Source: Sinomonas atrocyanea (lineage in GTDB: Bacteria; Actinomycetota; Actinomycetes; Actinomycetales; Micrococcaceae). Taken from it: 64,000 nucleotides of DNA. This document shows, in pieces, positions 4,780 to 30,997 of this stretch. The notes beneath the pieces are model-generated. The model was not told the origin of the DNA. It worked only from the letters and a program-made list of their open reading frames with translations, and did not search any database. Positions within the stretch are counted from its first letter, which is position 1. The number at the start of each line of letters is the position of its first letter. A program made the position numbers and the translations under genes. The DNA is taken from assembly GCF_030812675.1 (NCBI RefSeq), contig NZ_JAUSTE010000012.1:62001-126000 (forward strand), read 5' to 3'.

Positions 4780-4787
4780 CGCCCGGG

Positions 4788-5468: not shown

Positions 5469-5496
5469 GGGCCAAGCCTAGGCGGGGCGGGGGGCG

Positions 5497-6351: not shown

Positions 6352-6369
6352 GCCCCCAGCGTACGTCCG

Positions 6370-7257: not shown

Positions 7258-7347
7258 ATCGCCAGCATATGGTGCCAGGTCCGGCGCTCAGCTGGGACAC
7301 AGCCGGGAACCCTATGGCGCACAGGCGCCGATTCCTAGACTGGACGC

Positions 7348-8847
7348 ATGATCAGGGTCAGCCGCCGCCACTTCCTCCAGGGCGCCGGGATCGCCGTCGC
7401 CGGTGCATTCGCCGGGGCGGGCGTGGCCCGGTCGAGCATCTTCCCCCTCCCGCCGACCGCCGCGGCGGCCGCGCCCACGCCCAGCCCGTCGACCTCCGCG
7501 GGAGCCGGACTCCCGGACCGGACCTTCACCACCACCAAGCTGACCGCTCCCAGAGTGAGCATCTGGACCTCGGCCGCCACGGCCCCGGGTCTGCTGTTCA
7601 CCGGGCCGATGGGGCACGGGACGAACGGCCTCATCATGGACAACTCCGGGGCGCCGGTCTGGATGGAGCCCACCGGCGCCGGCGTCACGGACCTGCGCGT
7701 GCAGACGTACAAGGGCAACCCGGTCCTCACCTACTGGTCGGGCAAGGGGATCGGCGGCCACGGCGAGGGGGTGGGGATCATCAAGGACACGGGCTACACG
7801 ACGATCGCTCAGGTCTCCGCCGGCGGCGGGCTCAAGGCGGACCTCCACGAGTTCACGCTCACCTCGGCCGGAACCGCCCTGCTGACCTCGTACCCCACGG
7901 TGCAGGCCGACCTCACCCCGCTCGGCGGCCCCGCAGCGGGCTACATGTACGACTGCCACGTCCAGGAGGTCGACGTCGCGAGCGGAGCCGTGCTCTTCGA
8001 CTGGACGGCTTCCCAGCACGTCGGCCTCACGGAGTCCTTCGTCAAGCCCGCCGACGACCCCACGGCCAACGGGGCGAGCGCCGCGACGGCCTTCGACCCG
8101 TTCCACGTCAACTCGGTCGACCGCCGTGCGGACGGGTACCTCGTCTCAGCCCGCCACACCCACGCCGCCTACCTCGTCGGCCCGGACGGCTCGGTGCGGT
8201 GGCGGCTGGGCGGGGCCCGGAACGACTTCTCGATCCCCGATGCTGCGGCGTTCGCCTGGCAGCACGACGTCCGCCAGCGGCCCGGCGGCCTCATCAGCAT
8301 GTTCGACAACCACTACAAGGACGGCACCACCGGGACCTCCCGCGGCCTCATCCTCGCCGTCGACGAGCGTGCCCGGAAGGTCACCCTCCGGCTAGCCCTC
8401 GAGCGCGGAGGCCACCGCGGCAACGCCATGGGAAACGTCCAGTTCCTCGACAACGGCCACTACCTCGTCGGGTGGGGATCGGACCCTGCCGCCACCGAGT
8501 TCACGGCCGACGGCACGCCTGTCGCCGAGGCCACGGGGATCGGCGGCGGGTGCTACCGGGCCTACCGCCACGTCTGGTCCGCGACGCCGACGACGCCGCC
8601 CGACGTTGCCGTCGTGACGGGGAACGGCTCCTCCATGCAGGCCTACGCCAGCTGGAACGGCGCGACCGAGGTGGCGAGCTGGAGGTTCCTCACGGGGAGC
8701 AGCCCGCAGACGCTCAGCGAGGCCGCCGTCGTGAAGAAGCGCGGCTTCGAGACCAACGCGGCCGTCGCCGCGGCGGCGCACCTCGCGGTCCAGGCCCTCG
8801 ACGCGAAGGGCACCGTCCTGGCGACATCCGCGGTCATCGCGGCGTAG
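7348..8847 (+). CDS. Tat-exported arylsulfotransferase-family protein
   Basis: 499 residues. The N-terminus carries a twin-arginine signal (SRRHFLQ, Arg6-Arg7) followed by a hydrophobic Ala/Gly stretch. The mature part has the repeated His-rich segments of the ASST/arylsulfotransferase propeller family (DCHVQEVD, DPFHVNSVDRR, SARHTHAAY, WQHDVRQ, FDNHYKDG). Classical ASST enzymes transfer sulfate between phenols via an active-site His; whether this actinobacterial branch does so is unproven. TAGACT (7336-7341) ends 6 nt before the ATG, so it is probably leaderless. It is divergent from a LysR regulator. Confidence 0.82.
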   Translation: MIRVSRRHFLQGAGIAVAGAFAGAGVARSSIFPLPPTAAAAAPTPSPSTSAGAGLPDRTFTTTKLTAPRVSIWTSAATAPGLLFTGPMGHGTNGLIMDNSGAPVWMEPTGAGVTDLRVQTYKGNPVLTYWSGKGIGGHGEGVGIIKDTGYTTIAQVSAGGGLKADLHEFTLTSAGTALLTSYPTVQADLTPLGGPAAGYMYDCHVQEVDVASGAVLFDWTASQHVGLTESFVKPADDPTANGASAATAFDPFHVNSVDRRADGYLVSARHTHAAYLVGPDGSVRWRLGGARNDFSIPDAAAFAWQHDVRQRPGGLISMFDNHYKDGTTGTSRGLILAVDERARKVTLRLALERGGHRGNAMGNVQFLDNGHYLVGWGSDPAATEFTADGTPVAEATGIGGGCYRAYRHVWSATPTTPPDVAVVTGNGSSMQAYASWNGATEVASWRFLTGSSPQTLSEAAVVKKRGFETNAAVAAAAHLAVQALDAKGTVLATSAVIAA

Positions 8848-8905
8848 CGTGGGGGCCACGGGCCCTCCGCTCCGGGAGCGGCCCCGCCCGAACGGAAGGT
8901 GCGAG

Positions 8906-9859
8906 GTGAGCCGTGCACGCCGCGACGCTGCGCTCGGCGTCGCCTGCGTGCTCGGTGCATCCGTGCTGTGGGGCACCACCGGCACGGCGTCCGCGCTCGC
9001 CCCGTCCGTGACGCCGCTCGCCGTGGGCGCGGCGTCCATGGGGTTCGGCGGCCTCCTGCTCGCCGCGACCGCCCACCGGCAGCTTGCCCGGCACCGGCGC
9101 ACGCTGGTCCGCTCCTGGCCCGCCATCGCGGCGGGAGGAGCGGCGGTGCTCGCCTACGCGCTCACCTTCTACTCCTCGATGCGCCTCGCCGGCGTCGCGG
9201 TCGGCGCCGCCGTGTCGATCGGCGGCGCCCCCGTCGCCGCCGCGCTGCTCGAGCGCCTCGTCGACGGGCGGCCCCTCTCCGGCCGGTGGGCCGCCGGGGC
9301 GGCCGCCGGGATCAGCGGCGCGGTGCTCCTGTGCCTCTCCCGGGCAGCAGGCAGCGCGCCCGGGGCGCACGGAGCAGCCCAGACGCTGGCGGGGGTCGCG
9401 CTGGGAGCCGCGGCCGCGGCGTCGTACGCCCTCTACTCGTTCACGTGCCATCGGCTGATCCGGGCCGGCATCGGCTCCCGTGCCGCCGTGGGGGCCACGT
9501 TCGCCCTCGCGGCGCTGGGGCTGCTCGTGGTGCTCGCCTTCACCGGCGGGGCCTTCCTCGCCTCCTGGGGCAATGTCGCCGTGGGCGCCTACCTCGCCGT
9601 CGTGCCGATGTTCCTGGGCTACCTGCTGTTCGGCTGGGGCCTGGCCCGCGTCCCGGCCAGCGTCGCCACCACGGCGTCCCTGGCCGAGCCGGTGGTCGCC
9701 GCCGTCCTCGCCGTCGCGGTGGTGGGGGAGCGGCTGCCGCCCGCGGGCTGGGCGGGGATGGCGCTGATCGTGGCGGGCCTCGCCGTGCTCACTGTGCCCG
9801 TCCCCGCGCTGGCGGGGCGGCGTCGTGTATCCGCGGACGCGCCGAGAGTGGAGGGATAG
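8906..9859 (+). CDS. EamA/DMT family transporter
   Basis: 317 residues, about ten hydrophobic segments forming two EamA repeats (SVLWGTTGTASALAP in the first; PMFLGYLLFGWGLARVPASVATTASLAEPVVA in the second). Drug/metabolite exporters of this class move amino acids or small metabolites across the inner membrane; the substrate is unknown. The GTG at 8906 is chosen over an in-frame ATG at 8849 because GGAAGG (8894-8899) lies 6 nt upstream and the extra residues are not membrane-like. It is followed after 2 bp by the PHP gene, so the two are probably co-transcribed. Confidence 0.85.
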   Translation: MSRARRDAALGVACVLGASVLWGTTGTASALAPSVTPLAVGAASMGFGGLLLAATAHRQLARHRRTLVRSWPAIAAGGAAVLAYALTFYSSMRLAGVAVGAAVSIGGAPVAAALLERLVDGRPLSGRWAAGAAAGISGAVLLCLSRAAGSAPGAHGAAQTLAGVALGAAAAASYALYSFTCHRLIRAGIGSRAAVGATFALAALGLLVVLAFTGGAFLASWGNVAVGAYLAVVPMFLGYLLFGWGLARVPASVATTASLAEPVVAAVLAVAVVGERLPPAGWAGMALIVAGLAVLTVPVPALAGRRRVSADAPRVEG

Positions 9860-9861
9860 CA

Positions 9862-10887
9862 ATGGACCCCGTCGAGGCGCTCCGCGAGATCGCGTTCTGG
9901 CTCGAGCGAGAGCAGGCCGAGACCTACCGGGTCAGGGCCTTCCGATCGGCCGCCGGCATCGTGGCCGCCATGCCGGCGGACGAGGTGGCCTCGCGCGCAC
10001 GTGGCGGCAGCCTGCGGCGGGTCAAGGGGATCGGCGAGCGCACCTATACCGTGATCCGCGAGGCGGTCGACGGCGGGGTCCCCGCCTACCTCGGCGAGCT
10101 CAGGGAGCGGGCGGCCGCGCCCCTGGCCGAGGGCGGCGAGGGGATCCGCGGGCAGCTGCGCGGCGACCTGCACGCGCACTCCGACTGGTCCGACGGCGGC
10201 TCCCCGCTGGCCGAGATGGCCGAGGCAGCCCGCTGGCTCGGCCGCGAGTACCAGGCCCTCACCGACCATTCGCCGAGCCTGACCATCGCGCACGGGCTCG
10301 ACGCCGAACGGCTCCGTCGGCAGATCGACGCCGTGGCCGAGGCGAACGCGTCACCCGACGTGGAAGGATTCCGGCTGCTCACCGGCATCGAGGTGGACAT
10401 CCTCGAGGACGGCGCCCTGGACCAGACGCCGGAGCTGCTCGGCCGCCTCGACGTCGTGGTCGCGAGCGTGCACTCCAAACTCCGCTCGGAGTCCGGCCCG
10501 ATGACGCGGCGCATGCTCGCCGCGGTCGAGGACCCCCACACGGACGTGCTCGGCCACTGCACGGGCCGCCTGCTGCGCGGAGGCCGCGGCCCGCGCCCGG
10601 AGTCCCAGTTCGACGCCGAGCGGGTGTTCGCCGCGTGCGCCGAGGCGGGCGTCGCCGTCGAGATCAACTCCCGTCCCGAGCGGCAGGATCCCCCCGACCG
10701 GCTCATCCAGACCGCGCTCGACGCCGGCTGCCTCTTCAGCATCGACAGCGACGCCCACGCGCCGGGCCAGCTGGACTTCCTCCAGTACGGCGCCGCGCGC
10801 GCCGAGGCGAACGGAGTCCCGGCCGAGAGGATCGTCACGACGTGGCCGCTCGAGGACCTGCTCGACTGGACCGGCAGGCGGCGCTGA
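9862..10887 (+). CDS. PHP-domain phosphoesterase with PolX-type helix-hairpin-helix N-terminus
   Basis: 341 residues. Residues 1-85 resemble the PolX 8-kDa domain (EQAETYRVRAFRSAAGIV) and helix-hairpin-helix (RRVKGIGERTYTVIREA). Residues from about 100 form a PHP metal-dependent phosphoesterase (GDLHAHSDWSDGG, TDHSPS, GIEVDIL, VVASVHS, SDAHAPGQLDF). The nucleotidyltransferase palm of bacterial DNA polymerase X is absent, so it cannot be a polymerase; a 3'-5' nuclease or AP-site end-processing role is a reasonable inference. GAGGG (9851-9855) provides the ribosome-binding site. Confidence 0.82.
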   Translation: MDPVEALREIAFWLEREQAETYRVRAFRSAAGIVAAMPADEVASRARGGSLRRVKGIGERTYTVIREAVDGGVPAYLGELRERAAAPLAEGGEGIRGQLRGDLHAHSDWSDGGSPLAEMAEAARWLGREYQALTDHSPSLTIAHGLDAERLRRQIDAVAEANASPDVEGFRLLTGIEVDILEDGALDQTPELLGRLDVVVASVHSKLRSESGPMTRRMLAAVEDPHTDVLGHCTGRLLRGGRGPRPESQFDAERVFAACAEAGVAVEINSRPERQDPPDRLIQTALDAGCLFSIDSDAHAPGQLDFLQYGAARAEANGVPAERIVTTWPLEDLLDWTGRRR

Positions 10888-10956
10888 CCGCCGCTGCGGT
10901 TTGGCGCCCCCGCCCGCGGGTAGGCGACGGGCATGCCGACCAGCAGGAGGAACATC

Positions 10957-11754
10957 ATGCCCTTCGAACCGCGCACCGCCATCGTCACCGGCTCGGACTC
11001 CGGGATCGGCCGCGCCACCGCCGTCGCGCTCGCCGAGGCGGGGCTCGACGTCGGCATCACCTGGCACACTGACCGGGACGGCGCCGCGCGCACCGCCGAC
11101 GCCGTCCGCGCGGCCGGCCGGCGCGCCGTCGTCGAGCAGCTCGACGCCTCAGACGCCCCGCGCTGCGCGGACACCGTGGACACGCTCGCGGACCAGCTCG
11201 GGCGGCTCGACGTCTTCGTCAACAACGCGGGCACGGGGGCCAACGTGCCCTTCCTCGAGATGGACTACGGGCGCTGGCGCGGGATCGTCGCGACCGACCT
11301 CGACGGACCCTTCATATGCCTCCAGCGCGCCGCACGCCGGATGGTCGCCCAGGGCGCCGGGGGGCGCCTGATCGCGGTCACGAGCGTGCACGAGCACCAG
11401 CCGCGCGTGGGGTCCTCCGCCTACGACGCCGCCAAGCACGGCCTCGGCGGCCTCATCAAGACCATGGCGCTCGAGCTCGGGGCCGAGGGGATCACCGCCA
11501 ACTCCGTGGCCCCGGGGGAGATCGCCACGCCGATGACGGGGCAGGAGGACGAGGACCCGCGCACGGTCCACCGCCCGGGCGTGCCGCTCGGCCGGCCCGG
11601 CGACGCCCGCGAGGTCGCGGCCGTCATAGCGTTCCTCGCCTCGCCCGCGTCCGCCTACGTGACGGGAGCCTCGTGGACGGTCGACGGCGGGATGCTGCAG
11701 ATGGGCCCGCAGGCGGGGTCCCACCTCAGCGACGACGCCTGGCGCAAGGGGTAG
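10957..11754 (+). CDS. Short-chain dehydrogenase/reductase
   Basis: 265 residues. The classical SDR motifs are present: TGSDSGIG cofactor loop, NNAG, catalytic Ser plus YDAAK, and the C-terminal ASPASAYVTGASWTVDGG. The enzyme should oxidise or reduce a small alcohol/ketone with NAD(P)H; the substrate is unknown. The start at 10957 is preferred over an ATG at 10933 because AGGAGG (10945-10950) is spaced 6 nt from it. It stands alone between the PHP gene and a tiny gene on the same strand. Confidence 0.9.
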   Translation: MPFEPRTAIVTGSDSGIGRATAVALAEAGLDVGITWHTDRDGAARTADAVRAAGRRAVVEQLDASDAPRCADTVDTLADQLGRLDVFVNNAGTGANVPFLEMDYGRWRGIVATDLDGPFICLQRAARRMVAQGAGGRLIAVTSVHEHQPRVGSSAYDAAKHGLGGLIKTMALELGAEGITANSVAPGEIATPMTGQEDEDPRTVHRPGVPLGRPGDAREVAAVIAFLASPASAYVTGASWTVDGGMLQMGPQAGSHLSDDAWRKG

Positions 11755-11817
11755 ACCGGTCTGCATCTGGGGTGTTGGGTGCATCACAGAAGGACCGCCT
11801 CTGCGTACCGGTCTAGC

Positions 11818-11823
11818 TATGAT
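11818..11823 (+). promoter_or_regulatory. Candidate -10 element for the 58-residue gene
   Basis: TATGAT is a near-consensus -10 hexamer in otherwise GC-rich DNA, 65 bp upstream of the small gene at 11889. No good -35 is visible. AGACCGGTCT at the SDR stop codon and ACCGGTCTA just before this hexamer share ACCGGTCT. Confidence 0.45.
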
Positions 11824-11888
11824 GGCGGGGCAGGCTCAACGAGGAGGCTGCCAGGGCCACCCCTGATACCAGAGAAGGCATTCAGCGC

Positions 11889-12065
11889 ATGACTTTCGAC
11901 TCTCATTCCGTGACCCTCAAGATCTGGGACCCCTCGACCGTCGACCACACGCTCGAGGAGGCCATCTCGCACGTGTCCACACTCGCCGGGGCGCACCGCG
12001 ACCACGTCAAGGTCAGCCGCAGCGGTCCGGACGTCTTCACCGTCCATGTCGGGGACCTCGCCTGA
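11889..12065 (+). CDS. Small 58-residue protein of unknown function
   Basis: An ATG-to-TGA frame of 58 codons starting MTFDSHSVTLKIWDPSTV and ending VFTVHVGDLA. Third codon positions are almost all G or C, as in neighbouring real genes. The predicted layout is strand-helix-strand with a central EEAISHVSTLAGAHRDHV helix. A purine-rich AGAGAAGG lies 10 nt upstream, and a TATGAT hexamer about 65 bp upstream could be its promoter. I do not recognise a family. Confidence 0.6.
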   Translation: MTFDSHSVTLKIWDPSTVDHTLEEAISHVSTLAGAHRDHVKVSRSGPDVFTVHVGDLA

Positions 12066-12184
12066 GCGAAGCCCCTCGGAGGATCTGACCGGGGCGCCGT
12101 TCCAGCACAGCTGGGGCGGCGCCTCCCGCATGTCGGGGCCAATGGCACTTCCGCGGCCGGCCGCCCGGGGGAGACGGTGGGGGC

Positions 12185-13240
12185 ATGGCCGGAGCCGGCA
12201 CCGGAGGCGACCACGGCGCACGACGGCGCCGGGCCCGCTCGCGCGTGCTGCTCGCCGCCGCGGCGCTCCTCGTACTGGTCGGCTCGGCCGTCGGCTGGTT
12301 CGCGCTCACCCGTCCGCCGGGTACGGGGCCCGGTGCGTCCCCCACCGCCTCGATGCGCCCCACAGCGAGCGCCAGCGCGACGGCTGCCGCCTCGCTGCCC
12401 GACCTGGGCCCTGGCGCCCTGAACATCCTGCTCATCGGCAGCGACATCCGCGGCAGCGCCCGGGACGCCCTCGCGCGCCAGGCCGCCTCCGGCGGCACCG
12501 CCGACCAGCGGGCCGACATGATGATGCTCCTGCACGTCCAGGCTGACCACCGCCGGCTGTTTGGGATCTCGATCATGCGCGATACGTGGGTGACGGTGCC
12601 CGGGCACGGGGAATCCAAGATCAACGCGAGCCTCGCCCTCGGCGGGCCGTCGCTCGCCGCCGCGACCGTCGGCTCGATCCTCTCGGTCCACATCGACCAC
12701 TGGGCCCTGCTGGACTTCGACGGCTTCACGGCGATCACGGACGCACTCGGCGGGGTCGACGTCGACGTGCCGGTCGCGTTCACCGCGACGTTCGGCACCC
12801 ACCACGCCTTCACGCGCGGCGTCAACCACCTCGACGGCCGGGCGGCCCTCGAGTTCGTGCGCGAGCGCTACGCCTTCCCCGACGGCGACTACCAGCGCGT
12901 GCGCGACCAGCAGGCCTTCGTCCGCTCCGTCATCGCCGAGCTCCTCGCCCAGGGGCGCGTGGGGAACCCCGCCGGGGTGCTCGCCCTGATCGGGCTCGCC
13001 GGCCCGCACCTCGTCACGGACCCGGGACTCGGGGCAGACGGCCTGGCCGTTCTCGCGTTCGGGCTGCGGCACGTGGATCCGTCGTCGGACGTCTTCTTCA
13101 CGCTGCCGACGTCCGGCACGGGCACCTCACCTGACGGGCAGTCCATCGTGATCGCGGACCGGGCCGGAATGGCCGCCGTGGCAGCGGCGCTCGCCACCGA
13201 CAGCCTCGGGCAGTACGCCGCCCTCCACGGCCTCTCCTAG
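12185..13240 (+). CDS. LytR-CpsA-Psr (LCP) family protein
   Basis: 351 residues. A short basic cytoplasmic tail, one membrane segment (about residues 20-40) and a Ser/Thr/Ala-rich linker precede an LCP catalytic domain (NILLIGSDIRG, ISIMRDTWVTVPGHGESKIN, GGVDVDVPVAF, EFVRERYAFPDGDYQRVRDQQAF). LCP enzymes attach teichoic acid or arabinogalactan-type polymers to peptidoglycan outside the cell. Unlike the second LCP protein in this window it has no C-terminal LytR_C domain. A GGTGGGGG purine run sits directly before the ATG. Confidence 0.88.
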   Translation: MAGAGTGGDHGARRRRARSRVLLAAAALLVLVGSAVGWFALTRPPGTGPGASPTASMRPTASASATAAASLPDLGPGALNILLIGSDIRGSARDALARQAASGGTADQRADMMMLLHVQADHRRLFGISIMRDTWVTVPGHGESKINASLALGGPSLAAATVGSILSVHIDHWALLDFDGFTAITDALGGVDVDVPVAFTATFGTHHAFTRGVNHLDGRAALEFVRERYAFPDGDYQRVRDQQAFVRSVIAELLAQGRVGNPAGVLALIGLAGPHLVTDPGLGADGLAVLAFGLRHVDPSSDVFFTLPTSGTGTSPDGQSIVIADRAGMAAVAAALATDSLGQYAALHGLS

Positions 13241-13276
13241 CCGGTTCCCGGCCCGGCTCCCGCCTACACTGGCCCC

Positions 13277-15646
<2,370 letters not shown>

Positions 15647-15656
15647 GCGTCCTCGG

Positions 15657-15935
15657 CTAGGCCGTCGCGTACCGCCCGGAGCGCTCGGCCCGGGCGCGTG
15701 CCTTGGCCGCTTCCTCGTCGCGGTTCTTCGGCGGGGTCGTGGCCACCAGATCGTCGAGCAGGTGCGCGGTGATGTGCGCGATCTCGGCGACGGCGTGATC
15801 GAACGCGTCCTGGTTGGCCTTGGAAGGCTTCGTGGTGCCCGCGATCTTGCGCACGTACTGCAGGGCCGCTGCGTGGACCTCCTCCGAGGTGGCCGCAGGC
15901 TCGAAGTTGTGGAGGGTGTGGATGTTCCGGCACAT
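15657..15935 (-). CDS. DUF2277 family protein
   Basis: 92 residues beginning MCRNIHTLHNFEPAAT, the hallmark of the DUF2277 family, followed by a helical region (EEVHAAALQYVRKIAG) and a charged C-terminal tail. The start is chosen at MCRNIHTL because upstream codons are unlike the family. The gene is convergent with the UvrA-like gene. Family function is unknown. Confidence 0.85.
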   Translation of the reverse strand: MCRNIHTLHNFEPAATSEEVHAAALQYVRKIAGTTKPSKANQDAFDHAVAEIAHITAHLLDDLVATTPPKNRDEEAAKARARAERSGRYATA

Positions 15936-16084
15936 GCCTCGACGATACGCGGCAGGGCCGCCTGGGTCACTGGTGCACAGACGCCCGGGTGCCGTGTCCG
16001 TCGGCTGTTCTGTCGGTCCGGTGCGGGACACTGGCGGCAGGCGATGGACTCGTCGCCGGGGGAGCACCGAGGAAGGCACAGACC

Positions 16085-16246
16085 ATGGGATTCATCTTCC
16101 GCAGGACCGCGAAGCTCGGGAAGAACACGCGGCTGAACATCTCCAAGAGCGGGGCCTCGGTCAGCCGGCGGATCGGCCCGGTGACGGTCAACAGCCGCGG
16201 CAGGATCAGGATCAGGCTCGGCAAGGGCCTGTCCTGGAGGCTGTGA
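16085..16246 (+). CDS. DUF4236-like small basic protein
   Basis: 53 residues with the pattern GFIFRRTAKLGKNTRLNISKSGASVS at the N-terminus, typical of DUF4236 domains, which are often N-terminal to longer proteins; here it stands alone and ends RLGKGLSWRL. It is very basic (many Arg/Lys). GAGGAAGG lies about 8 nt upstream of the ATG. Function unknown. Confidence 0.7.
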   Translation: MGFIFRRTAKLGKNTRLNISKSGASVSRRIGPVTVNSRGRIRIRLGKGLSWRL

Positions 16247-16349
16247 CTGGCCAGACGGGCGTGCGCGGGACCTTCTTCGGCCCTACTCGTCCACCCGGCG
16301 CGGCGGTGCGCTGGCAGGGCAATCCCTGCACGCGGAAGGACTGGTCATC

Positions 16350-17654
16350 ATGGGCGACGCAGCGGTACCGGATGCCTTCGCGCCGGAGGACGGCCGGCTT
16401 GGTCTGGGGGACCCCGACTTCCCCCAGCACGCCTTCGAGCGCTACGCGGCCCTGCGCGCCGCCTGCCCTGTCCACCGTGCGCTGCTCGCAGACAGCACGC
16501 TCGGGTCGGTGCCGGCGCCCCTCCGCGATCGCCCGCTCTGGGCGGTGACCGGATACGACGCCGCGGTGGCCGCGCTGGTCGACGAACGCCTCAGCGTGGA
16601 TCCACACACCGGGTTCACCGCTGAGGACCTCGCGGCGATGCCTGGCGGGAACGAGCCCGAGACGCGCGTGCTCCTGCGCACCATGCTCTCGGTGGACCCG
16701 CCTGAACACACCAGGCTGCGCAAGCTGGTGCAGCCGAGCTTCACCGCGCGGGCGATCGCGGCGTGGGCGCCGCGGATCCAGCAGATCGCCGACCGCCTCC
16801 TCGACGCCGCCGAGGCGGGGGCCGCAGCCCGTGGCGAGGCCGCTCCCCGGCGGGGGCTCGAACTCGTGTCCGCCTACGCGTATCCGCTTCCCATTGCGGT
16901 GATCTTCGAGCTCCTGGGCATCCCGGAATCGGACCGTTCCCGCGTCCACGGGTGGACCGAGGATCTGTTCCGCTCGGGCCTGGAGCCCGACGGGCGCATG
17001 GCCGCCGGCATGCGTGCGTTCGCCGCCTACGGCCGGGAGCTTGTCGCCGCCAAGACGGCCGCACCGGGGGAGGACCTGCTCACACAGCTGGTGCACGCCG
17101 CCCAGGACGGCGACAGCCTGGACCAGGACGAGCTGGTGGCGATGATCTTCCTGCTGATCCTTGCCGGGCATGTCACCACGGTGAACCTGATCGCCTCCGC
17201 CGCGTACGCCCTGCTCACCCATCCGGATCAGCGGGCCCTGCTGGCGGACGACCCCGACCTCGTTGACGGCGCGATCGAGGAGACGCTGCGATGCTGGGGG
17301 CCGGCCGAACTTGCCAGCGAGCGGTACGCCCTCGAAGACCTCGAGCTGAGCGGGATCGACGTCCGGCGCGGCGATCTGGTGCTGCCGATCCTCGCAGCCG
17401 CCGACCGGGATCCGGCGCGGTTCGCCGACCCCGACCGGTTCGACCTTGCCCGCCCGGATGCCCGTCGCCACCTGGCGTTCGGCAAGGGGGTGCACGCCTG
17501 CCTCGGCGCGCCGTTGGCCCGGCTCGAGGGCCGGATCGCCGTGGGGACATTGTTCAGGCGCTGCCCGGATCTCCGGCTCGCAGTCCCTGCCGAGCAGATC
17601 CGCCAGAGAGCCATGCCCTTGCGCGGAATCGATGCTCTGCCGCTGACGTACTGA
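16350..17654 (+). CDS. Cytochrome P450
   Basis: 434 residues. Canonical P450 signatures are present: I-helix AGHVTT (272-277), K-helix EETLR (E311, R314) and the heme-binding loop FGKGVHACLG with axial Cys384. It is a soluble bacterial class I type without a membrane anchor, so it needs a ferredoxin and reductase, which are not encoded nearby. Substrate unknown. It is the last gene before the putative dif site, 95 bp upstream of it. No clear ribosome-binding site; the start follows GACTGGTCATC. Confidence 0.93.
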   Translation: MGDAAVPDAFAPEDGRLGLGDPDFPQHAFERYAALRAACPVHRALLADSTLGSVPAPLRDRPLWAVTGYDAAVAALVDERLSVDPHTGFTAEDLAAMPGGNEPETRVLLRTMLSVDPPEHTRLRKLVQPSFTARAIAAWAPRIQQIADRLLDAAEAGAAARGEAAPRRGLELVSAYAYPLPIAVIFELLGIPESDRSRVHGWTEDLFRSGLEPDGRMAAGMRAFAAYGRELVAAKTAAPGEDLLTQLVHAAQDGDSLDQDELVAMIFLLILAGHVTTVNLIASAAYALLTHPDQRALLADDPDLVDGAIEETLRCWGPAELASERYALEDLELSGIDVRRGDLVLPILAAADRDPARFADPDRFDLARPDARRHLAFGKGVHACLGAPLARLEGRIAVGTLFRRCPDLRLAVPAEQIRQRAMPLRGIDALPLTY

Positions 17655-17749: not shown

Positions 17750-17777
17750 CGCGCCGATAATCGACATTATGTCAACT
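17750..17777 (+). other. dif: Putative chromosome-dimer-resolution site (dif)
   Basis: An 11-6-11 layout: XerC-type arm CGCGCCGATAA (17750-17760), centre TCGACA (17761-17766), XerD-type arm TTATGTCAACT (17767-17777). Compared with the E. coli arms GGTGCGCATAA and TTATGTTAAAT, 7 of 11 and 9 of 11 positions match, and the inner ATAA...TTAT symmetry and 6-bp spacer are preserved. It lies in a gene-free gap and gene orientation shifts across it (11/17 on + to the left, 29/42 on - to the right). The sequence match is seen directly; function as the XerCD crossover site at the terminus is inferred. Confidence 0.85.
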
Positions 17778-17908: not shown

Positions 17909-17926
17909 GCGAGAGGTACCTCTCGC
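17909..17926. repeat. 18-bp perfect palindrome near dif
   Basis: GCGAGAGGT directly followed by its reverse complement ACCTCTCGC, 131 bp right of the dif-like site and 46 bp left of the XerD half-site, then GGTTTTGTG. It could be a dimeric protein operator or fold into a small hairpin with a GTAC loop. No adjacent gene starts here. Confidence 0.6.
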
Positions 17927-17972: not shown

Positions 17973-17983
17973 TTATGTCAACT
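17973..17983 (+). repeat. Second copy of the XerD arm (dif half-site)
   Basis: TTATGTCAACT is identical to the XerD arm of the dif-like site; with the preceding A the two copies share 12 bp, in the same orientation, 206 bp apart. The sequence where a XerC arm would lie (TCTTCGGGGCC) does not match, so it is a half-site only. Confidence 0.6.
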
Positions 17984-18037
17984 GCGCCGGAATCAGCCGG
18001 TGGGAGTTCGTGTTCGATTCGCACGGCGGAGACCGCC

Positions 18038-19270
18038 TCAGATCCGGCCGTCACGTCCGGTGAGCCGACGGCCCCGCGCCTCGAGATAGGCCCTCTCCCC
18101 TGCGCCCGGCGCCAGCCGCGCAGCCTGGGCGAACTCGGCGGCCGCCTCGGCGTCACGGCCCGTCCTCGCGAGGAGGTCGGCTCGCACGGCGTGGAACACG
18201 TGGTATCCCGTGAGGCCGAGCCCGTCGACGAGCGCCAGGGCGACCGCCGGGCCCTCGGCCTCGGCGACCGCGACCGCCCGGTTGAGCGCGACGACCGGCC
18301 CCGGCGCCACCTCGGCGAGCAGGTCGTACAGCCTCACGATCCGGTGCCAGTCGGTGGCCTCGGCCGATCCGGCCACGGCATGAACCGCCTGGATGGCCGC
18401 CTGGAGCTGGTACTGCCCGAGCCGTCCGCGCCCGAGGCACTCCCGCACGAGCGCCCTGCCCTCGCCGATGAGCGCAGCGTCCCAGAGCGACCGGTCCTGC
18501 TCCGCGAGCGGGACGAGGACGCCTCCCGGCCCGGAGCGCGCCATCCGCCGCGACTCGGACAGCAGCAGCAGCGCGAGCAGCCCGACGGCCTCCGGTTCGC
18601 CCGGGAGGAGCCGGACCAGCACGCGGGCGAGCCGCACCGCTTCGGAGCACAGCCCGGCCCGAGCGGGCGGCTCCCCCAGCCCGGCCGAGTACCCCTCGTT
18701 GTAGATGAGGTAGATCACAGCGAGGACCCCCGAGAGCCGCTCGGGCAGCTCCTGGGCCGGCGGCAGCCGGTACGGGATGCGCGCGTCGCGGATCTTGGCC
18801 TTCGCGCGCGAGATCCGCTGGGCGAGCGTCGCCTCGGGGACCAGGAACGCGGCGGCGATCTGCGCCGTTGTGAGTCCGCCGATGATCCTCAGGGCGAGGG
18901 CCACCCTGGCCGGCATGGCCAGGGCCTGGTGGCAGCACACGAACAGCAGCGCGAGCCGGTCGTCGCCGAAGGGCTCCGAGCGGGGCGCGTCGTCGGCGAG
19001 GGCTGCCGCCGCGGCCTCCCTGCCTCCCCGGGTCACTTCCCGACGGAAGCGGTCGACGGCGCGGCGCCGCGCCGCCGTGATGATCCACGCGCCGGGGTGC
19101 TCGGGCGTGCCGTCGGCTGGCCAGCGCTCGGCGGCCGCGGCGAAGGCCTCCTGCACCGCGTCCTCCGCGAGGCCGAGGTCGCCCGTGGTGCGCACGAGCA
19201 CGGAGACCGCCCTGCCGTACTCCTCCCGGAACACGGCAGCGACGGCCCCGCCGTCCCCTGCCTCAGCCAC
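18038..19270 (-). CDS. ECF42-type RNA polymerase sigma factor
   Basis: 410 residues. Sigma region 2 (FREEYGRAVSVLVRTTGDLGLAEDAVQEAFAAA) and region 4 (LTTAQIAAAFLVPEATLAQRISRAKAKIR) are followed by a long C-terminal TPR-like extension (about 200 residues; YNEGYSAGLG, LNRAVAVAEAEGP), the hallmark of ECF42. These factors lack an anti-sigma factor and are typically linked to YCII/DGPF-domain genes, exactly as here. The GTG at 19270 overlaps the upstream YCII gene stop by 8 bp, implying translational coupling. The extension is thought to control activity. Confidence 0.88.
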   Translation of the reverse strand: MAEAGDGGAVAAVFREEYGRAVSVLVRTTGDLGLAEDAVQEAFAAAAERWPADGTPEHPGAWIITAARRRAVDRFRREVTRGGREAAAAALADDAPRSEPFGDDRLALLFVCCHQALAMPARVALALRIIGGLTTAQIAAAFLVPEATLAQRISRAKAKIRDARIPYRLPPAQELPERLSGVLAVIYLIYNEGYSAGLGEPPARAGLCSEAVRLARVLVRLLPGEPEAVGLLALLLLSESRRMARSGPGGVLVPLAEQDRSLWDAALIGEGRALVRECLGRGRLGQYQLQAAIQAVHAVAGSAEATDWHRIVRLYDLLAEVAPGPVVALNRAVAVAEAEGPAVALALVDGLGLTGYHVFHAVRADLLARTGRDAEAAAEFAQAARLAPGAGERAYLEARGRRLTGRDGRI

Positions 19271-19628
19271 CCGTGCTCGGCGCAGGGACGCCGGCGAAGG
19301 GACGGACCTCGATCGGCAGGCCCGTGATCTCGGCGAATCGGCGCCCCCAGGCCAGGGCCGCGTCCAGGTCGGGGGCCTCGATGATGTCGAAGCCGCCCAT
19401 GTGCTCCTTGCCCTCGAGGTAGGGCCCATCGGTGACGAGCACCTCTCCCCCCTCCGCGCGCAGCACCGTCGCGGACGACGCGTCGGCGAGCCCGTTCCCG
19501 TAGACGTAGGCCCCCGCCGCCTTGAGGTCCTCGGTCAGCTGCCCGAGCCTGGCCATAATGGGCGCGAGGAATTCGGGCGGCGGCACAACGCCGTCGGGCT
19601 GGTACATGCTGATCAGGTACTGGGTCAT
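19263..19628 (-). CDS. YCII-related (DGPF-type) protein
   Basis: 121 residues starting MTQYLISMYQPDG, with the DGPF-like core VTDGPYLEGKEHMGGFDIIEAPDLDAAL. YCII domains are small ferredoxin-fold proteins with a possible enzymatic or ligand-sensing role. It overlaps the downstream ECF42 sigma gene by 8 bp; this partnership is conserved in ECF42 systems, and these proteins are probable members of its regulon. GGAGGCGAGG lies a few nt before the ATG. Confidence 0.88.
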   Translation of the reverse strand: MTQYLISMYQPDGVVPPPEFLAPIMARLGQLTEDLKAAGAYVYGNGLADASSATVLRAEGGEVLVTDGPYLEGKEHMGGFDIIEAPDLDAALAWGRRFAEITGLPIEVRPFAGVPAPSTGG

Positions 19629-21204: not shown

Positions 21205-22290
21205 TCAGGAGCGGGTGAAGTCCACCCACGCCTGGAGCACCCGGGCCGCGGCGCCGGAGTCGATCGAGTCCTCGGCGCGCCGCTTCGCGGCGGCGAGCCG
21301 CTCGACCAGTGGGCCCTCCGCGGAGAGGTCGTAGGCCACAAGCCCAGCGGCTGCATTGAGCACCACGGCGTCGCGCACCGGGCCCCGGTCGCCGGCGAGG
21401 GTACGGCGGAGGACTCCGGCGTTGTGCGCGGCATCTCCCCCGCGCAGGTCGTCGAGCGTCGCCCTCGGGATGCCGAGGTCGAGCGGATCGAGGACCGACT
21501 CCGTGAGCTCCCCGTCCCGGACCTCCCACACGCGCGAGGTGGTCGTGATGGTGAGCTCGTCGAGCCCGTCGTCGCCGCGGAAGACCAGCCCCCGGCTCCC
21601 GCGCTCGGCGAGGACGCCGGCGATCAGCGGCGCCATCCGGGCATCCGCCGCCCCGACCGCCGAGGCCTGCACGTGCGCAGGGTTCGTGAGCGGGCCGAGG
21701 ATGTTGAACGCCGTCGGGATCGCCAGCTCCTTGCGCGGCACGGCCGTGTACCGGAACGACGGATGGAAGACCTGGGCGAAGCAGAAGGTGATGCCCACGT
21801 GCTCCGCGGCCGCTGCCACGCGGTCGACGCCCATGTCCAGCCGGACCCCGAGCGCCTCCAGGACGTCCGCGGAGCCGGAGGACGACGACGCGGCGCGGTT
21901 GCCGTGCTTGACAACCTTGGCGCCCGCGCCGGCCATGACGAGCGCAGCCGTGCTCGAGATGTTCACCGTGTTCTGCTGGTCCCCGCCGGTGCCCACGATG
22001 TCGAGCTTCTCCCCCGAGATCGTGATAGGCGTGGCACGGGCGACCATGCCCTTGACGAGGCCCGCGAGCTCGTCGACGGTCTCCCCCTTGGCGCGCAGGC
22101 CCACGAGGAACCCGGCGATCTGGGAGTCGGTGGCGTCACCGGCCATGATCGTGTCCATGGCCCAGGCCGCCTCGGCCTGGCTCAGATCGCGCCCCGCGAC
22201 GAGAGCGCCGATCAGGGACCGCCACGTGGGCGCGGTCGCAGGGGCAGATTCTCCAGGGGCAGATTCATTGCCGGAAGCCACGGTGTTCAC
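21205..22290 (-). CDS. trpD: Anthranilate phosphoribosyltransferase
   Basis: 361 residues. Transfers phosphoribose from PRPP to anthranilate, the second step of tryptophan synthesis. Motifs: GTGGD (PRPP binding), [29 protein letters not shown], and [11 protein letters not shown]. The GTG start at 22290 is chosen because TAGCAT (minus, 22303-22298) ends 7 nt before it; this is the leaderless pattern. It is separated from other trp genes, which are not in the window. A hairpin follows the stop. Confidence 0.94.
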
Positions 22291-22424
22291 GCCTCTGATG
22301 CTATCGACCCCGCACGGGTGGTGCCGAAACCTCCGGCCATGAGACGGGCCGCGGCCGCGCGCGGCCGCGGATCCGCATGTTTTCGAGGGTTTGTAGAAAA
22401 AGTTCCCAGAAGGTGCGGTTCGCG

Positions 22425-22457
22425 TTGGGCGAACCCGAGGTTTGTAGACATAATGTC
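22425..22457 (+). promoter_or_regulatory. ctaE promoter with symmetric -10 region
   Basis: TTGGGC (22425-22430), an 18-bp spacer and CATAAT (22449-22454) form a plausible promoter. The -10 lies inside the inverted repeat GACAT-A-ATGTC (22447-22457), a possible operator. Transcription would start at or next to the GTG at 22461. Confidence 0.55.
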
Positions 22458-22460
22458 CTT

Positions 22461-23099
22461 GTGACGACAGCGACTCATGCCCCGACAACCCCGGCACATC
22501 CCACGCTGAATCGCCCCAACATGGTCTCGGTCGGGACCGTGGTGTGGCTGTCCAGTGAGCTGATGTTCTTCGCCGGCCTCTTCGCCATGTACTTCACCCT
22601 GCGTGCCGCCTCGGGCGGCCTGTGGGCTGAGGAGACGGCCAAGCTCGACTTCCCCTACGCGCTCGTGAACACGATCGTCCTCGTGGCGAGCTCCTTCACG
22701 TGCCAGATGGGCGTCTTCGCGGCGGAGAGGCTCCAGCCCCGCCGTAGCGGCGGCGTCTTCGCGTTCGCCAAGTGGGGCATGGTGGAGTGGTTCATCCTCA
22801 CGTTCTTCATGGGCACCTGGTTCGTCGCCGGGCAGGCGACTGAGTACGCGAACCTCACCGCGGAGCACGTGACCCTGAATGCCAATGCCTACGGTTCCGC
22901 GTTCTACATGACGACCGGCTTCCACGGCCTCCACGTGATGGGCGGCCTCGTGGCCTTCCTGTTCATCATCGGCCGCGCCTTCGCAGCCAAGCGCTTCGGC
23001 CACTACGAGGCCACCTCGGCCATCGTCACCTCGTACTACTGGCACTTCGTGGACGTCGTGTGGATCGGGCTCTTCCTGGTCATCTACGTCCTCAGGTAG
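22461..23099 (+). CDS. ctaE: Cytochrome c oxidase subunit III
   Basis: 212 residues, five membrane helices, the actinobacterial short form of subunit III ([29 protein letters not shown] at the first helix; [28 protein letters not shown] at the C-terminus). It stabilises the aa3-type oxidase. The GTG at 22461 is preceded by a CATAAT -10 ending 6 nt upstream. It begins the ctaE-qcrC-qcrA-qcrB operon, while the other oxidase subunits are on the opposite strand 5 kb away. Confidence 0.96.
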
Positions 23100-23172
23100 T
23101 CCCCAGGAGCACAGCAGCAGATTTCGGACCGCGCCCGGACGGCGGCGGCAGCAAACGGATAGGAACGGATTC

Positions 23173-23958
23173 GTGAAGGCACTCTCGCAGAAGCGGCGTC
23201 ACCCGATGGCAGTCATCGCACTGTTGGTCATGGGGCTGCTGCTGACCGGCGGAATGTACGCAATGTTCAGCACTGCCAACCAGGCCAAGGCGGACACCAG
23301 CTTCTCGGCGTCGGACGTCAGCGAGGGGCAGAAGCTCTTCGTGGCGAACTGCGCCACGTGCCACGGCATGGGCGCCTCCGGCACGGCCGCCGGCCCGTCC
23401 CTGGTCGGCGTCGGCGCAGCAGCGGTGGACTTCCAGGTCGGCACCGGCCGCATGCCGATGCAGATGAACGGCCCGCAGGCGCAGAAGAAGCCGGTGCAGT
23501 TCAATGATGACCAGACCAAGCAGCTCGCGGCCTACGTCGCCTCGCTCGGCCCCGGCCCGGCCCTGCCGGACTCGGCGATGCTCGATGACAAGGGAGACGC
23601 CACCCACGGCGGCGAGCTCTTCCGCGTCAACTGCGCCATGTGCCACAACGCCGCGGCGGCCGGCGGTGCCCTGACCCAGGGCAAGTTCGCTCCGTCCCTC
23701 GCGGGCGTCACCGAGAAGCACATCTACGAGGCCATGGCCACGGGCCCGCAGAACATGCCGGTGTTCTCCGACGCCAACATCTCCCCCGAGGGCAAGCGCG
23801 ACATCATCACGTTCCTCAAGACGATCGAGACCCAGGGCTCGCCCGGCGGCGCCACCCTCGGCTCGCTCGGTCCTGTCTCCGAGGGCCTCTTCGTGTGGGT
23901 TGCAGGCCTCGGCGTCATCATCGGCTTCACGATCTGGCTCACGTCCCGCACGTCCTGA
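23173..23958 (+). CDS. qcrC: Cytochrome bc1 complex diheme cytochrome c subunit
   Basis: 261 residues. An N-terminal membrane anchor is followed by two cytochrome c domains with CATCH (Cys60, Cys63, His64) and CAMCH (Cys154, Cys157, His158), and a C-terminal membrane helix (LFVWVAGLGVIIGFTIWL). In Actinobacteria this diheme protein wires the bc1 complex directly to the aa3 oxidase, replacing a soluble cytochrome c. It starts with GTG and lies 73 bp after ctaE, in the same operon. Confidence 0.97.
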   Translation: MKALSQKRRHPMAVIALLVMGLLLTGGMYAMFSTANQAKADTSFSASDVSEGQKLFVANCATCHGMGASGTAAGPSLVGVGAAAVDFQVGTGRMPMQMNGPQAQKKPVQFNDDQTKQLAAYVASLGPGPALPDSAMLDDKGDATHGGELFRVNCAMCHNAAAAGGALTQGKFAPSLAGVTEKHIYEAMATGPQNMPVFSDANISPEGKRDIITFLKTIETQGSPGGATLGSLGPVSEGLFVWVAGLGVIIGFTIWLTSRTS

Positions 23959-24056
23959 CGCGCCAGCGCATCGCAGTATGGGCCGCCCAACGAGTGGCGG
24001 CATAGATTTGAACATCGTCCCCCGGCTGCCGGGGGCCAGGAAGGATGAGGGGAAAT

Positions 24057-25103
24057 ATGGGCAACCATAGTGACGGTTCTCCCCAGACCGGGGGCGCCGT
24101 AGCTACGGCTGGTCAGACAGAGAAGTTCGCGGATCCGGGACTCCCGCCGCACCGCCTCCGTCTGGCTGACACCGACCCCAGGGCTGCGAAGCGCGCTGAG
24201 CGCCAGGTCACGATTCTGTTCATCATCTCGGTGATCGGCACCATCGTGTTCCTCGTCGCGTACTTCGCCATCGACTTGGGCAGCGACTCGACGATCCCGA
24301 CGATCCGCCTGCAGAACATCCTGCTCGGCCTCGGCACCACCTTCGCCATGCTCGGCATCGGCACGGGGATCGTGCACTGGGCCAAGGCGCTCATGCCGGA
24401 CCACGAGGTCTCGGAGTCGCGGCACGCGATCAGCTCCGAGGAGGACCGCGTCGCCGCGGTCAAGATCGTCGACGACATCATCGAGGAGACGGGCATCAAG
24501 CGCCGTCCCCTCATCCGGAACACGCTCATCGGCGCGCTCGCGCTCGCCCCGCTCCCGGCCCTCGCCGTCTTCGGCGACCTGGGACCGAACGCGAACGACA
24601 AGCTGCGCCACACGATGTGGGCCCCGAAGAACGGCAAGAAGGTCCGCCTCACCCGTGACCCGGACGGCACGCCGATCAAGGCTTCGGACGTCACCATCGG
24701 CTCCGCGTTCCACGTCATTCCCGAGGGTCTGAACGACCTCACCGAGGGCAAGCTGAACGAGAAGGCAAAGGCCGTCGTCCTGCTCATGCGCCTCAACCCG
24801 ACGGACCTGCACATCTCGCCCGGCCGCGAGAGCTGGAGCTACAACGGCATCGTCGCGTACTCCAAGATCTGCACGCACGTCGGCTGCCCGGTGGCCCTCT
24901 ACGAGCAGCAGACCCACCACCTGCTGTGCCCGTGCCACCAGTCGACCTTCGACCTCACCCACGAGTGCGAGGTCATCTTCGGTCCTGCGAGCCGTCCGCT
25001 TCCGCAGCTCCCGATCGAGGTCGACGCCGACGGCTACCTCGTGGCCACGTCGGACTTCCACGAACCTGTTGGACCTAGCTACTGGGAGCGTGAGTACTCG
25101 TGA
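24057..25103 (+). CDS. qcrA: Cytochrome bc1 complex Rieske iron-sulfur subunit
   Basis: 348 residues. Three N-terminal membrane helices, an actinobacterial feature, precede a Rieske domain with ligands in CTHVGC (Cys272, His274) and CPCH (Cys291, His294); the disulfide pair is Cys277 and Cys293. The ATG at 24057 is favoured over 24045 because GGGG (24049-24052) is better spaced from it. Its TGA overlaps the qcrB GTG by four bases (GTGA), a sign of translational coupling. Confidence 0.95.
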   Translation: MGNHSDGSPQTGGAVATAGQTEKFADPGLPPHRLRLADTDPRAAKRAERQVTILFIISVIGTIVFLVAYFAIDLGSDSTIPTIRLQNILLGLGTTFAMLGIGTGIVHWAKALMPDHEVSESRHAISSEEDRVAAVKIVDDIIEETGIKRRPLIRNTLIGALALAPLPALAVFGDLGPNANDKLRHTMWAPKNGKKVRLTRDPDGTPIKASDVTIGSAFHVIPEGLNDLTEGKLNEKAKAVVLLMRLNPTDLHISPGRESWSYNGIVAYSKICTHVGCPVALYEQQTHHLLCPCHQSTFDLTHECEVIFGPASRPLPQLPIEVDADGYLVATSDFHEPVGPSYWEREYS

Positions 25104-26782
25104 GCGGCACTACCGCCTCCACCTATCAGCCGCCGACCAAGGTCGGCCGGATCGCCAGCTTCGTCGACCAGCGCACGGGCGCGTCGAGCGTGGTGCGGGA
25201 GTTCGGCCGCAAGGTCTTCCCCGACCACTGGTCGTTCATGTTCGGCGAGGTCGCCCTCTACAGCTTCGTCATCCTGCTGCTGTCGGGCACCTTCCTGACG
25301 TTCTTCTTCGATCCGTCGATGGCGGAGACGCACTACGCCGGCGCCTACGTGCCGCTGCGCGGCATGGAGATGTCCGTCGCCTACCAGTCTTCGCTGCACA
25401 TCTCCTTCGAGGTGCGCGGCGGCCTCTTCATGCGCCAGGTCCACCACTGGGCCGCCCTGCTGTTCGTGGCCTCGATGAGCGTGCACATGCTGCGCGTGTT
25501 CTTCACCGGCGCGTTCCGCAAGCCGCGTGAGATGAACTGGGTCATCGGCGGCGTGCTCCTCATCCTGGGCATGGCCGCCGGCTTCACCGGCTACTCCCTG
25601 CCCGACGACCTGCTCTCGGGCAACGGCCTCCGCATCATCGACGGCGTCATCAAGTCCATCCCGATCATCGGCACCTGGATCTCGATGTTCCTCTTCGGCG
25701 GTGAGTTCCCGGGCTCGGCCATCATCGGCCGCCTCTACGTGCTGCACATCCTGCTCATCCCGGCGATGATCCTGCTGTTCGTGGCGCTGCACCTGATGTT
25801 CGTCGTGGTGCACAAGCACACGCAGTACCCCGGCCCGGGCCGCAACGACGGCAACGTGGTCGGCTACCCCCTCGGCCCGGTCTACGCGGCCAAGGCGGGC
25901 GGCTTCTTCTTCATCGTGTTCGGCGTGATCGCCGCGATGGCCTCGGCCTTCACGATCAACCCGATCTGGAACTACGGTCCCTACGACCCCTCCCCCGTCT
26001 CGGCCGGCACCCAGCCGGACTGGTACATCGGCTGGGTCGACGGCGCGCTGCGCCTCATGCCGGGTGTCCTCGGCCCGATCGGCGGGTACCGGCAGCACTT
26101 CGAGTTCATGATCTTCGACCAGACGCTCACGCTCAATGTGCTCCTGCCGGCCCTCGTCCCCGCGGGCATCGTCTTCACCGTGCTGTTCACGTACCCGTGG
26201 ATCGAGCGGTGGATCACCAAGGACGAGCGCGAGCACCACGTCCTGGACCGTCCCCGGAACGCCCCGACGCGCACCGCGATCGGCATGGCCGGGTTCACGT
26301 TCTACTGCGTCATGTGGGCTGCAGCCAGCTCCGACCTCATCGCGACCCACTTCCACGTGGCGCTCAACGATGTGACCTACTGGCTCCGCGCGCTGTTCTT
26401 CGCAGGCCCGATCATCGCGTTCGTCGTCACGAAGAGGATCGCCCTGGCGCTCCAGCGCAAGGACCGCGAGATCGCCCTCCACGGCCGGGAGACCGGCCGC
26501 ATCGTCCGGCTCCCGCACGGCGAGTTCATCGAGGTGCACGCCCCGGTCGACGAATACAAGCGCTACCGTCTTGTGGGCTTCGAGTCGCCCCATGCCCTTC
26601 CGGCACAGCCGAATGCCAAGGGTGTCGTGGACCGCAAGGAGAAGCGCCGCGCGAAGCTCTCCAAGTGGTTCTTCGAGGACCGCGTCGCTCCGGTGACGCC
26701 GGCCGAGCTCGAGGCCGCCCACGCCCATGGGCACCACGAGGCGATCGAGTCGCACGACGAGGCCAAGAGCATCAGCCACTGA
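25100..26782 (+). CDS. qcrB: Cytochrome bc1 complex cytochrome b subunit
   Basis: 560 residues, with the b-type heme region (SLHISFEVRGGLFMRQVHHWAALLFVASMSVHMLRVFFTGAF; LHILLIPAMILLFVALHLMFVVVHKHTQYPGPG) and the Qo-site segment containing PYDPSPVSAG, where classical proteins have PEWY; actinobacterial proteins vary here. A long C-terminal cytoplasmic tail is rich in charge and His. GTG start overlapping the qcrA stop. It is the last gene of the operon; a strong hairpin follows. This subunit is the binding site of Q203-type inhibitors in mycobacteria. Confidence 0.96.
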   Translation: MSGTTASTYQPPTKVGRIASFVDQRTGASSVVREFGRKVFPDHWSFMFGEVALYSFVILLLSGTFLTFFFDPSMAETHYAGAYVPLRGMEMSVAYQSSLHISFEVRGGLFMRQVHHWAALLFVASMSVHMLRVFFTGAFRKPREMNWVIGGVLLILGMAAGFTGYSLPDDLLSGNGLRIIDGVIKSIPIIGTWISMFLFGGEFPGSAIIGRLYVLHILLIPAMILLFVALHLMFVVVHKHTQYPGPGRNDGNVVGYPLGPVYAAKAGGFFFIVFGVIAAMASAFTINPIWNYGPYDPSPVSAGTQPDWYIGWVDGALRLMPGVLGPIGGYRQHFEFMIFDQTLTLNVLLPALVPAGIVFTVLFTYPWIERWITKDEREHHVLDRPRNAPTRTAIGMAGFTFYCVMWAAASSDLIATHFHVALNDVTYWLRALFFAGPIIAFVVTKRIALALQRKDREIALHGRETGRIVRLPHGEFIEVHAPVDEYKRYRLVGFESPHALPAQPNAKGVVDRKEKRRAKLSKWFFEDRVAPVTPAELEAAHAHGHHEAIESHDEAKSISH

Positions 26783-26799
26783 CGCTGGCAGCCTCCCCA

Positions 26800-26842
26800 A
26801 CGGGAAGGACCCCCCACCATCATGGTGCGGGGTCCTTCCCGT
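26800..26842. terminator. Hairpin terminator after qcrB
   Basis: ACGGGAAGGACCCC (26800-26813) pairs perfectly with GGGGTCCTTCCCGT (26829-26842), with a nested CACCAT/ATGGTG inner stem. It lies between the convergent qcrB and GntR genes and can serve both. Confidence 0.85.
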
Positions 26843-26888
26843 CTGCGGCTCACCACGGATACTCGGCTGAGCGTTCCCCCAAGGCCGC

Positions 26889-27680: not shown

Positions 27681-27813
27681 AGTCCTCCTCGTGAGCCGCG
27701 GGGCCGCGTGCCCCGGCAGGGGCCGCGGCACGTGTCGCGATTCAATCCTGACACACGCCCACGGGGCGCGCGCACGCCGCCCCACGCTCTCGGCCGAGGG
27801 CAGAAACGCCGAT

Positions 27814-27844
27814 GGCCGGCACCCTCATCGTGAGGGTGCCGGCC
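27814..27844. terminator. Hairpin terminator after ctaF
   Basis: A perfect 14-bp stem, GGCCGGCACCCTCA with its complement, loop TCG, 23 bp beyond the ctaF stop codon. No T-tract. Confidence 0.85.
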
Positions 27845-27867
27845 ACCGGCGTGAAGGCAGACCGAGC

Positions 27868-29990: not shown

Positions 29991-29995
29991 GGTCC

Positions 29996-30853: not shown

Positions 30854-30997
30854 AGACGGCCCTTCCTCTTGGTGCTTCTCTCCGGTGGCAGCACGGCAGA
30901 CGAGCTCCCGTGCACGCGACCGGGCGACATAGTTTTACTACTCGGTGTAGAGCTTACAGCGAACATCGGCCAATATCCCACATGTCCCGCAGACGCG

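Follow-up and report, generated by a model that had tools for sequence, protein, structure and literature searches.

The window analysed here, a 64,000-nucleotide stretch of the Sinomonas atrocyanea genome, contains a cytochrome P450 gene and a gene for a sigma-70-type factor, which converge on a gap at 17655–18037. This gap holds a 28-mer, CGCGCCGATAATCGACATTATGTCAACT, that is predicted to be the chromosomal dif site, followed downstream by a second, solitary copy of its XerD arm, referred to below as the satellite. The features of the region are as follows.

16350..17654, + strand: cytochrome P450 gene (PF00067), left neighbour of dif
17750..17777, + strand: predicted dif site, with the XerC arm at 17750–17760, the central hexamer at 17761–17766, and the XerD arm at 17767–17777
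17909..17926, no strand assigned: hairpin GCGAGAGGTACCTCTCGC that runs into a T-rich tail, situated in the interval from dif to the satellite
17973..17983, + strand: the satellite, a lone XerD arm TTATGTCAACT that repeats the one in dif exactly, 206 bp downstream and in the same orientation
17999..18016, + strand: conserved motif GGTGGGAGTTCGTGTTCG, just past the satellite, the core of which is present in 6 of 8 satellite-bearing Sinomonas genomes at up to one mismatch
18038..19429, − strand: sigma-70-type factor gene (Sigma70_r2, r4_2, and DUF6596), with its stop at 18038, right neighbour of dif
589..17072, + strand: copies of the octamer CGGGGGAG left of dif, comprising all 9 + strand copies in the window, on the leading strand
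21435..60501, − strand: copies of CGGGGGAG right of dif, comprising all 8 − strand copies in the window

Sequence and setting of the dif site

The 28-mer lies on the + strand and is composed of CGCGCCGATAA-TCGACA-TTATGTCAACT. It was the sole match in the window when up to three mismatches were allowed, and no match was obtained in 100 shuffles. An earlier note on this DNA had described a 28-mer with an 11-6-11 layout in a gene-free gap, and we found the same layout and coordinates, as well as the setting between two convergent genes. The same note had counted 7/11 and 9/11 arm positions in common with E. coli dif; our recount agreed. The earlier reading also held on alignment with a known actinobacterial dif. 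Kono et al. 2011 (PMC3025954) predicted dif in 66 of 66 actinobacteria, and the Frankia alni dif given there shares 10/11 bases with each arm and 24/28 bases overall (four differences).

A gene encoding a UvrA-like ABC protein is located at 13277–15646, ca. 2.1 kb left of dif, and an ORF resembling this gene was observed ca. 2.9 kb upstream of dif in one relative (G001; L035). The hairpin between dif and the satellite is probably a terminator for the convergent genes. GAGAGGTACCTCTC, in the hairpin region, is unique in the genome as an exact match. We considered it as a matS-like repeated terminus site and rejected it, with one exact place and near-matches distributed genome-wide (24 per strand at up to two mismatches, compared with 19 for the reversed-pattern control).

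Copy number, conservation, and recombination enzymes

In the 4.12-Mb genome, the 20-bp core GATAATNNACATTATGTCAA gave one exact match and one match with two mismatches. The earlier note had expected a single copy, and the exact core indeed occurs once, the next best match differing at 2 of the 18 specified bases. Several genomic copies, which that note had named as evidence to the contrary, were absent, the second match being an imperfect one on the dnaA-bearing contig. Its other counter-indication, a distant GC-skew switch with a better dif match there, did not arise either. This second dif-like core (AATAATCGACCTTATGTCAA; C9:167163–167182; L002/L049) is apparently intergenic and lies ca. 98 kb from dnaA. 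No integrase was recognized by eye among the ORFs of at least 150 aa near it, and it is possibly a relic att site.

When up to three mismatches were allowed, matches to the dif core were found in 56 of the 58 relatives (reversed-pattern control, 3 of 58); with no more than two, they were found in 128 of the 129 family genomes (reversed-pattern control, 0). A slightly modified pattern, allowed one mismatch, matched in 81 of the 89 order genomes (control, 0). The genome encodes XerD (344.7 bits, above the NCBI cut-off), FtsK_gamma (83.1 bits), and SMC (891.6 bits). Another protein that also scored strongly with the XerD model (263.7 bits, below the XerD cut-off and scored with this model alone) is probably XerC.

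Position of the terminus and a strand-biased octamer

Because the genome consists of 32 contigs, the position opposite dnaA was taken from relatives. We searched five relatives having one-contig chromosomes, taken as closed circles, with a DnaA model, and dif was located at 49.1–50.7% of the circle from dnaA in all five (fractions of 0.495 in G002, 0.497 in G003, 0.497 in G004, 0.491 in G009, and 0.507 in G013).

By convention, the cumulative GC skew has its maximum at the terminus. The cumulative GC skew of the window showed a weak minimum near 28 kb and no switch at dif. The extremum near 17.76 kb that the earlier note had predicted was thus not borne out, the minimum that appeared instead being of the opposite sign to that of a terminus. 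GC skew left and right of dif in G013 showed no difference (31 vs 29 samples, p = 0.94). As observed in the window and one relative, GC skew is uninformative as a terminus signal in Sinomonas.

We sampled 60 stretches of 20 kb from G013, split them at dif, and took as candidates the octamers with at least 150 copies. CGGGGGAG was the most strand-biased octamer (193 leading vs 16 lagging); in the three samples closest to the origin, its copies were not polar (4 vs 6). GGGNAGGG was weakly polar in the same samples (220 vs 159). On the window's own 128.9-kb contig, all 20 copies of CGGGGGAG to the left of dif were on one strand and all eight to the right were on the other (20:0 and 0:8), and the best strand switch fell at 17065–21435, with dif inside. 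Similarly, GGGGGAG was distributed 33:2 left and 1:16 right of dif, with the best switch at 17066–18671. The octamer-switch test also bracketed dif in G002, G003, and G013; since the octamer was derived by splitting G013 at dif, only the genomes other than G013 are independent tests. Its distribution makes CGGGGGAG, strongly polar in Sinomonas, a candidate FtsK-loading sequence.

Assignment of the chromosomal dif and its predicted working

The claim of the earlier note that the 28-mer is the dif of this organism is supported by the consensus, the one exact core, the conservation in the family, and the presence of genes for XerD, a XerC-like protein, and FtsK gamma. Its further claim, that dif marks the terminus, stood up as well, dif being opposite dnaA in 5 of 5 relatives and the octamer switching strand here. 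We conclude from the sequence that 17750–17777 is almost certainly the chromosomal dif and marks the terminus. It is very improbable that the 28-mer is instead an att site of an integrative element (a dif-like att or plasmid-type site): relatives do have dif-like sites close to genes for tyrosine recombinases (G013 at 1,033,291 and 4,099,211; G009 contig C2), but the 28-mer carries the family consensus, is the best copy in its own genome, and is flanked by host genes, none of the five neighbours scanned encoding a recombinase. Its coincidence with the polarity switch speaks strongly against an att site. The confirmation of dif anchors the terminus of a high-GC genome in which GC skew fails and the polar octamer serves instead.

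From established knowledge of the Xer/FtsK system, XerC would bind the left arm and XerD the right arm of this dif. FtsK would load on polar sequences pointing toward the terminus, most likely CGGGGGAG, and pump DNA from both replichores until dif reaches the septum. The gamma domain of FtsK would then activate XerD, and strand exchange across the central hexamer would convert a chromosome dimer into two monomers.

The lone XerD arm in the window and the genus

The genome has two exact copies of the 12-mer ATTATGTCAACT, one within dif and the other at 17972–17983. The satellite agrees with the XerD arm at 11/11 positions and has no XerC arm, with 2/8 XerC-core bases at the right spacing. There are four exact copies of TTATGTCAAS in the genome, and the 129-kb terminus contig holds only those of dif and the satellite. 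A third TTATGTCAAS site, 274–340 kb from dif in the nine Sinomonas genomes measured, was rejected as a satellite on account of its promoter-like context: a conserved sequence resembling a MerR-type promoter, AACCTTAACCCTCAA...GAAGGTTATAGTTATGTCAAS, there happens to include the XerD-arm 9-mer (L173–L181, L184, L187, L188, and L190).

Eight of the 15 Sinomonas genomes have the arm 175–206 bp downstream of dif, and it was not found in the other seven. The eight genomes first aligned had been picked for having the arm; therefore, its invariance at 10/10 positions is partly by construction. Between dif and the arm, 25 of 195 reference columns were invariant in these eight satellite-bearing genomes. 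We repeated the test with genomes selected by the hairpin core AGAGGNACCT, which picked the same 8 of 15; all eight had exact TTATGTCAAC, and the other seven did not. The independent lineages number fewer than eight because G003 and G014 are nearly identical.

Satellites in the family and the order

The family set consisted of 134 of 138 dif loci, each taken with flanks of at most 700 bp to either side and without dif itself (184,169 bases in total). The 138 genomes were the 129 family genomes and nine further members of the genus, and G078 (no match), G132 (ambiguous), G083, and G136 were left out. TTATGTCAA was present in dif orientation at 33 of the 134 loci, in 12 of 31 genera; 300 scrambled 9-mers were found at a mean of 0.15 loci and a maximum of 3. 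It was not found at the other 101 of the 134 loci, six of the 134 having less than 700 bp downstream of dif, and 19 of the 31 genera had none. On the opposite strand, TTATGTCAA occurred at 4 of 134 loci in two genera. These minus-strand arms within 700 bp of dif were rejected as satellites: three in g12 share a repeated, coding-looking context, and one is in g9 (G149). Three 8-base pieces of the XerC arm were present at three loci each among the 134.

The 33 loci contain 35 arms, 34 of which have no XerC arm (at most 4/8 XerC-core bases at the right spacing). All eight Sinomonas arms are downstream of dif, on the XerD side, and 26 of the 27 others are upstream, on the XerC side, at 209–585 bp. 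Among the 9-mers counted near dif in 54 hand-picked family loci, TTATGTCAA showed the highest enrichment (24 of 54), and it was absent from both strands of 398,890 dif-distant positions. A set of 80 named loci, drawn from at least 118 matched stretches that may overlap the 134-locus genomes, had the satellite on the dif strand at 15 and on the other strand at one. Of these 80, the locus of Sinomonas cellulolyticus (L083) matched window 5001–30000 best, at 85.4% over 5606 bp.

Across 172 loci (134 from the family and 38 from the order), TTATGTCAA satellites occurred at 28 of 87 loci whose dif arm is TTATGTCAA and at 4 of 45 whose dif arm is TTATGTAAA. TTATGTAAA satellites were present at only 1 of the 45 loci having TTATGTAAA as the dif arm, and a clean covariation of the satellite with the dif arm was rejected; this speaks against a strictly XerD-matched site. 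Of the 38 order loci outside the family, none had a copy of its own arm on the dif strand and two had one on the other strand; TTATGTCAA was present within 700 bp of dif at 1 of 38 on each strand. In the genus g52, tandem TTATGTMAA arms 44 or 63 bp apart were observed 246–324 bp upstream of dif in five of six genomes (L199, L200, and L202–L204).

Mobile elements at dif and alternative origins of the satellite

In several relatives, a tail, CTGCGTAT...GATGAATCA, directly follows the XerD arm (G001, L035; G009, L043; G011, L045; and the second site of G013, L054). A conserved element end, CTGCGTAT..CATCTGATGAATCA, is found beside XerD arms of dif or dif-like sites, also on contig C2 of G009 (L051). 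At the dif of G009 and on its contig C2, two genes come next, one encoding a Phage_integrase protein (400 aa) and the other a Cys-rich 506-aa protein having no Pfam match, and G013 has ORFs similar to the G009 element with 86% DNA identity. In G009, the stretch that the dif region shares with contig C2 spans ca. 4.0 kb, and its far end lacks a XerD arm. A match to the XerD arm with one mismatch lies 5.5 kb from dif in G009, outside the stretch shared with C2.

The lone XerD arms near dif could be non-functional scars of elements once integrated at dif, an explanation that we regard as unlikely but serious. dif is a hot spot for elements: in G001, G009, and G011, their tails adjoin the XerD arm directly, and CTGCGTAT is present within 25 bp after dif at 10 of the 134 family loci. 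The satellites are also oriented as dif, as element ends would be. In G069, a second site near dif has 7/8 XerC-core bases and the same element tail as dif, and is therefore a real dif duplicate. However, such a XerC arm is missing from 34 of the 35 satellites, including that of the window, and the far end of the one element for which copies were compared (G009) has no XerD arm. Selection by the independently sought hairpin core led to 8 of 15 Sinomonas genomes, all with exact TTATGTCAAC, and the arm is exact although so few columns between dif and the arm are invariant, which also speaks against scars.

It is rather unlikely that the satellite serves as a promoter element (with TTGACA on the opposite strand), as the operator of some other regulator, or as a cer/psi-like accessory sequence for selective Xer recombination. 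Its reverse strand reads TTGACATAA, and the distant TTATGTCAAS site described above lies in MerR-type-promoter-like sequence, both of which would suit a promoter; a scan of 17500–18200 that used the sigma-70 consensus only gave no promoter-like site. Accessory sequences of plasmids are on the scale of ca. 200 bp, and the satellite is at a similar distance from dif. Against an accessory sequence, the side of dif varies between Sinomonas and the other genera and thus fits no fixed synapse geometry.

Possible role of the satellite

Since the XerD half is present without the XerC half, the satellite should bind XerD alone, and our best guess is that it is a XerD-only binding site. Such sites would have been gained repeatedly, on either side of dif. 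By analogy, we tentatively suggest that, in this family (probably Micrococcaceae), lone XerD arms within ca. 600 bp of dif may unload SMC or otherwise dock XerD. The likeliest job, though at less than even odds, is that XerD docked at the satellite would unload SMC at the terminus, as XerD does in Bacillus subtilis. Unloading of SMC at XerD sites (XDS) in B. subtilis was reported by Karaboja et al. 2021, as cited in PMC10945525, PMC12322038, and PMC13342612, the last of which presents a Hi-C argument that dif is where SMC is unloaded in a wider range of bacteria. The 19 of 31 genera having no satellite and the arms that do not follow the TTATGTAAA dif count against the SMC-unloading role.

As a dif, the site is ordinary and of a kind already known; the lone XerD arm is the less expected part of the finding. 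The titles and abstract openings searched held no description of lone XerD arms beside actinobacterial dif, which is weak evidence of absence because the subscription literature was mostly outside the search. If the lone arms bind XerD, they would be small, deletable sites for probing the action of XerD on SMC or on dimer resolution in actinobacteria, and the family sample provides genera with and without satellites for comparison.

Comparison with known systems

The site resembles the F. alni dif, as presented in the available part of PMC3025954, in its 11-6-11 layout, most of its bases, a single exact core per genome, and its position at the terminus. It differs in the central hexamer (TCGACA here and TGCACA there) and in one base of each arm. 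That part of PMC3025954 makes no mention of a lone XerD arm near actinobacterial dif, whereas here one lies 206 bp away.

Like the KOPS/AIMS polar octamers (PMC5993296 and PMC13342612), the octamer of Sinomonas is on the leading strand and switches at dif. Unlike them, the octamer here is CGGGGGAG, and GGGNAGGG is weakly polar in the G013 samples (counts given above).

The att sites of IMEX and mobile elements that target dif are reviewed in PMC5357621. The satellite is similar in that Xer arms are in direct orientation near dif and such elements occupy dif in related genomes. It differs from a two-arm, dif-like att site in having no XerC arm (2/8 XerC-core bases), in the lack of a recombinase among the five neighbours scanned, and in an arm that is exact in 8 of 8 hairpin-bearing genomes.

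The XDS of B. subtilis are several and are spread over the terminus region. In contrast, we found a single exact satellite 206 bp from dif, and the exact arms on the 129-kb terminus contig are those of dif and the satellite only. In common with the XDS, the satellite is a putative XerD half-site near the terminus, in a genome that encodes both XerD and SMC. If the suggested role is true, the second job of XerD would extend, in terms of defined DNA sites, to bacteria other than Firmicutes, and the XerD/SMC sites would be concentrated beside dif rather than across the terminus region.
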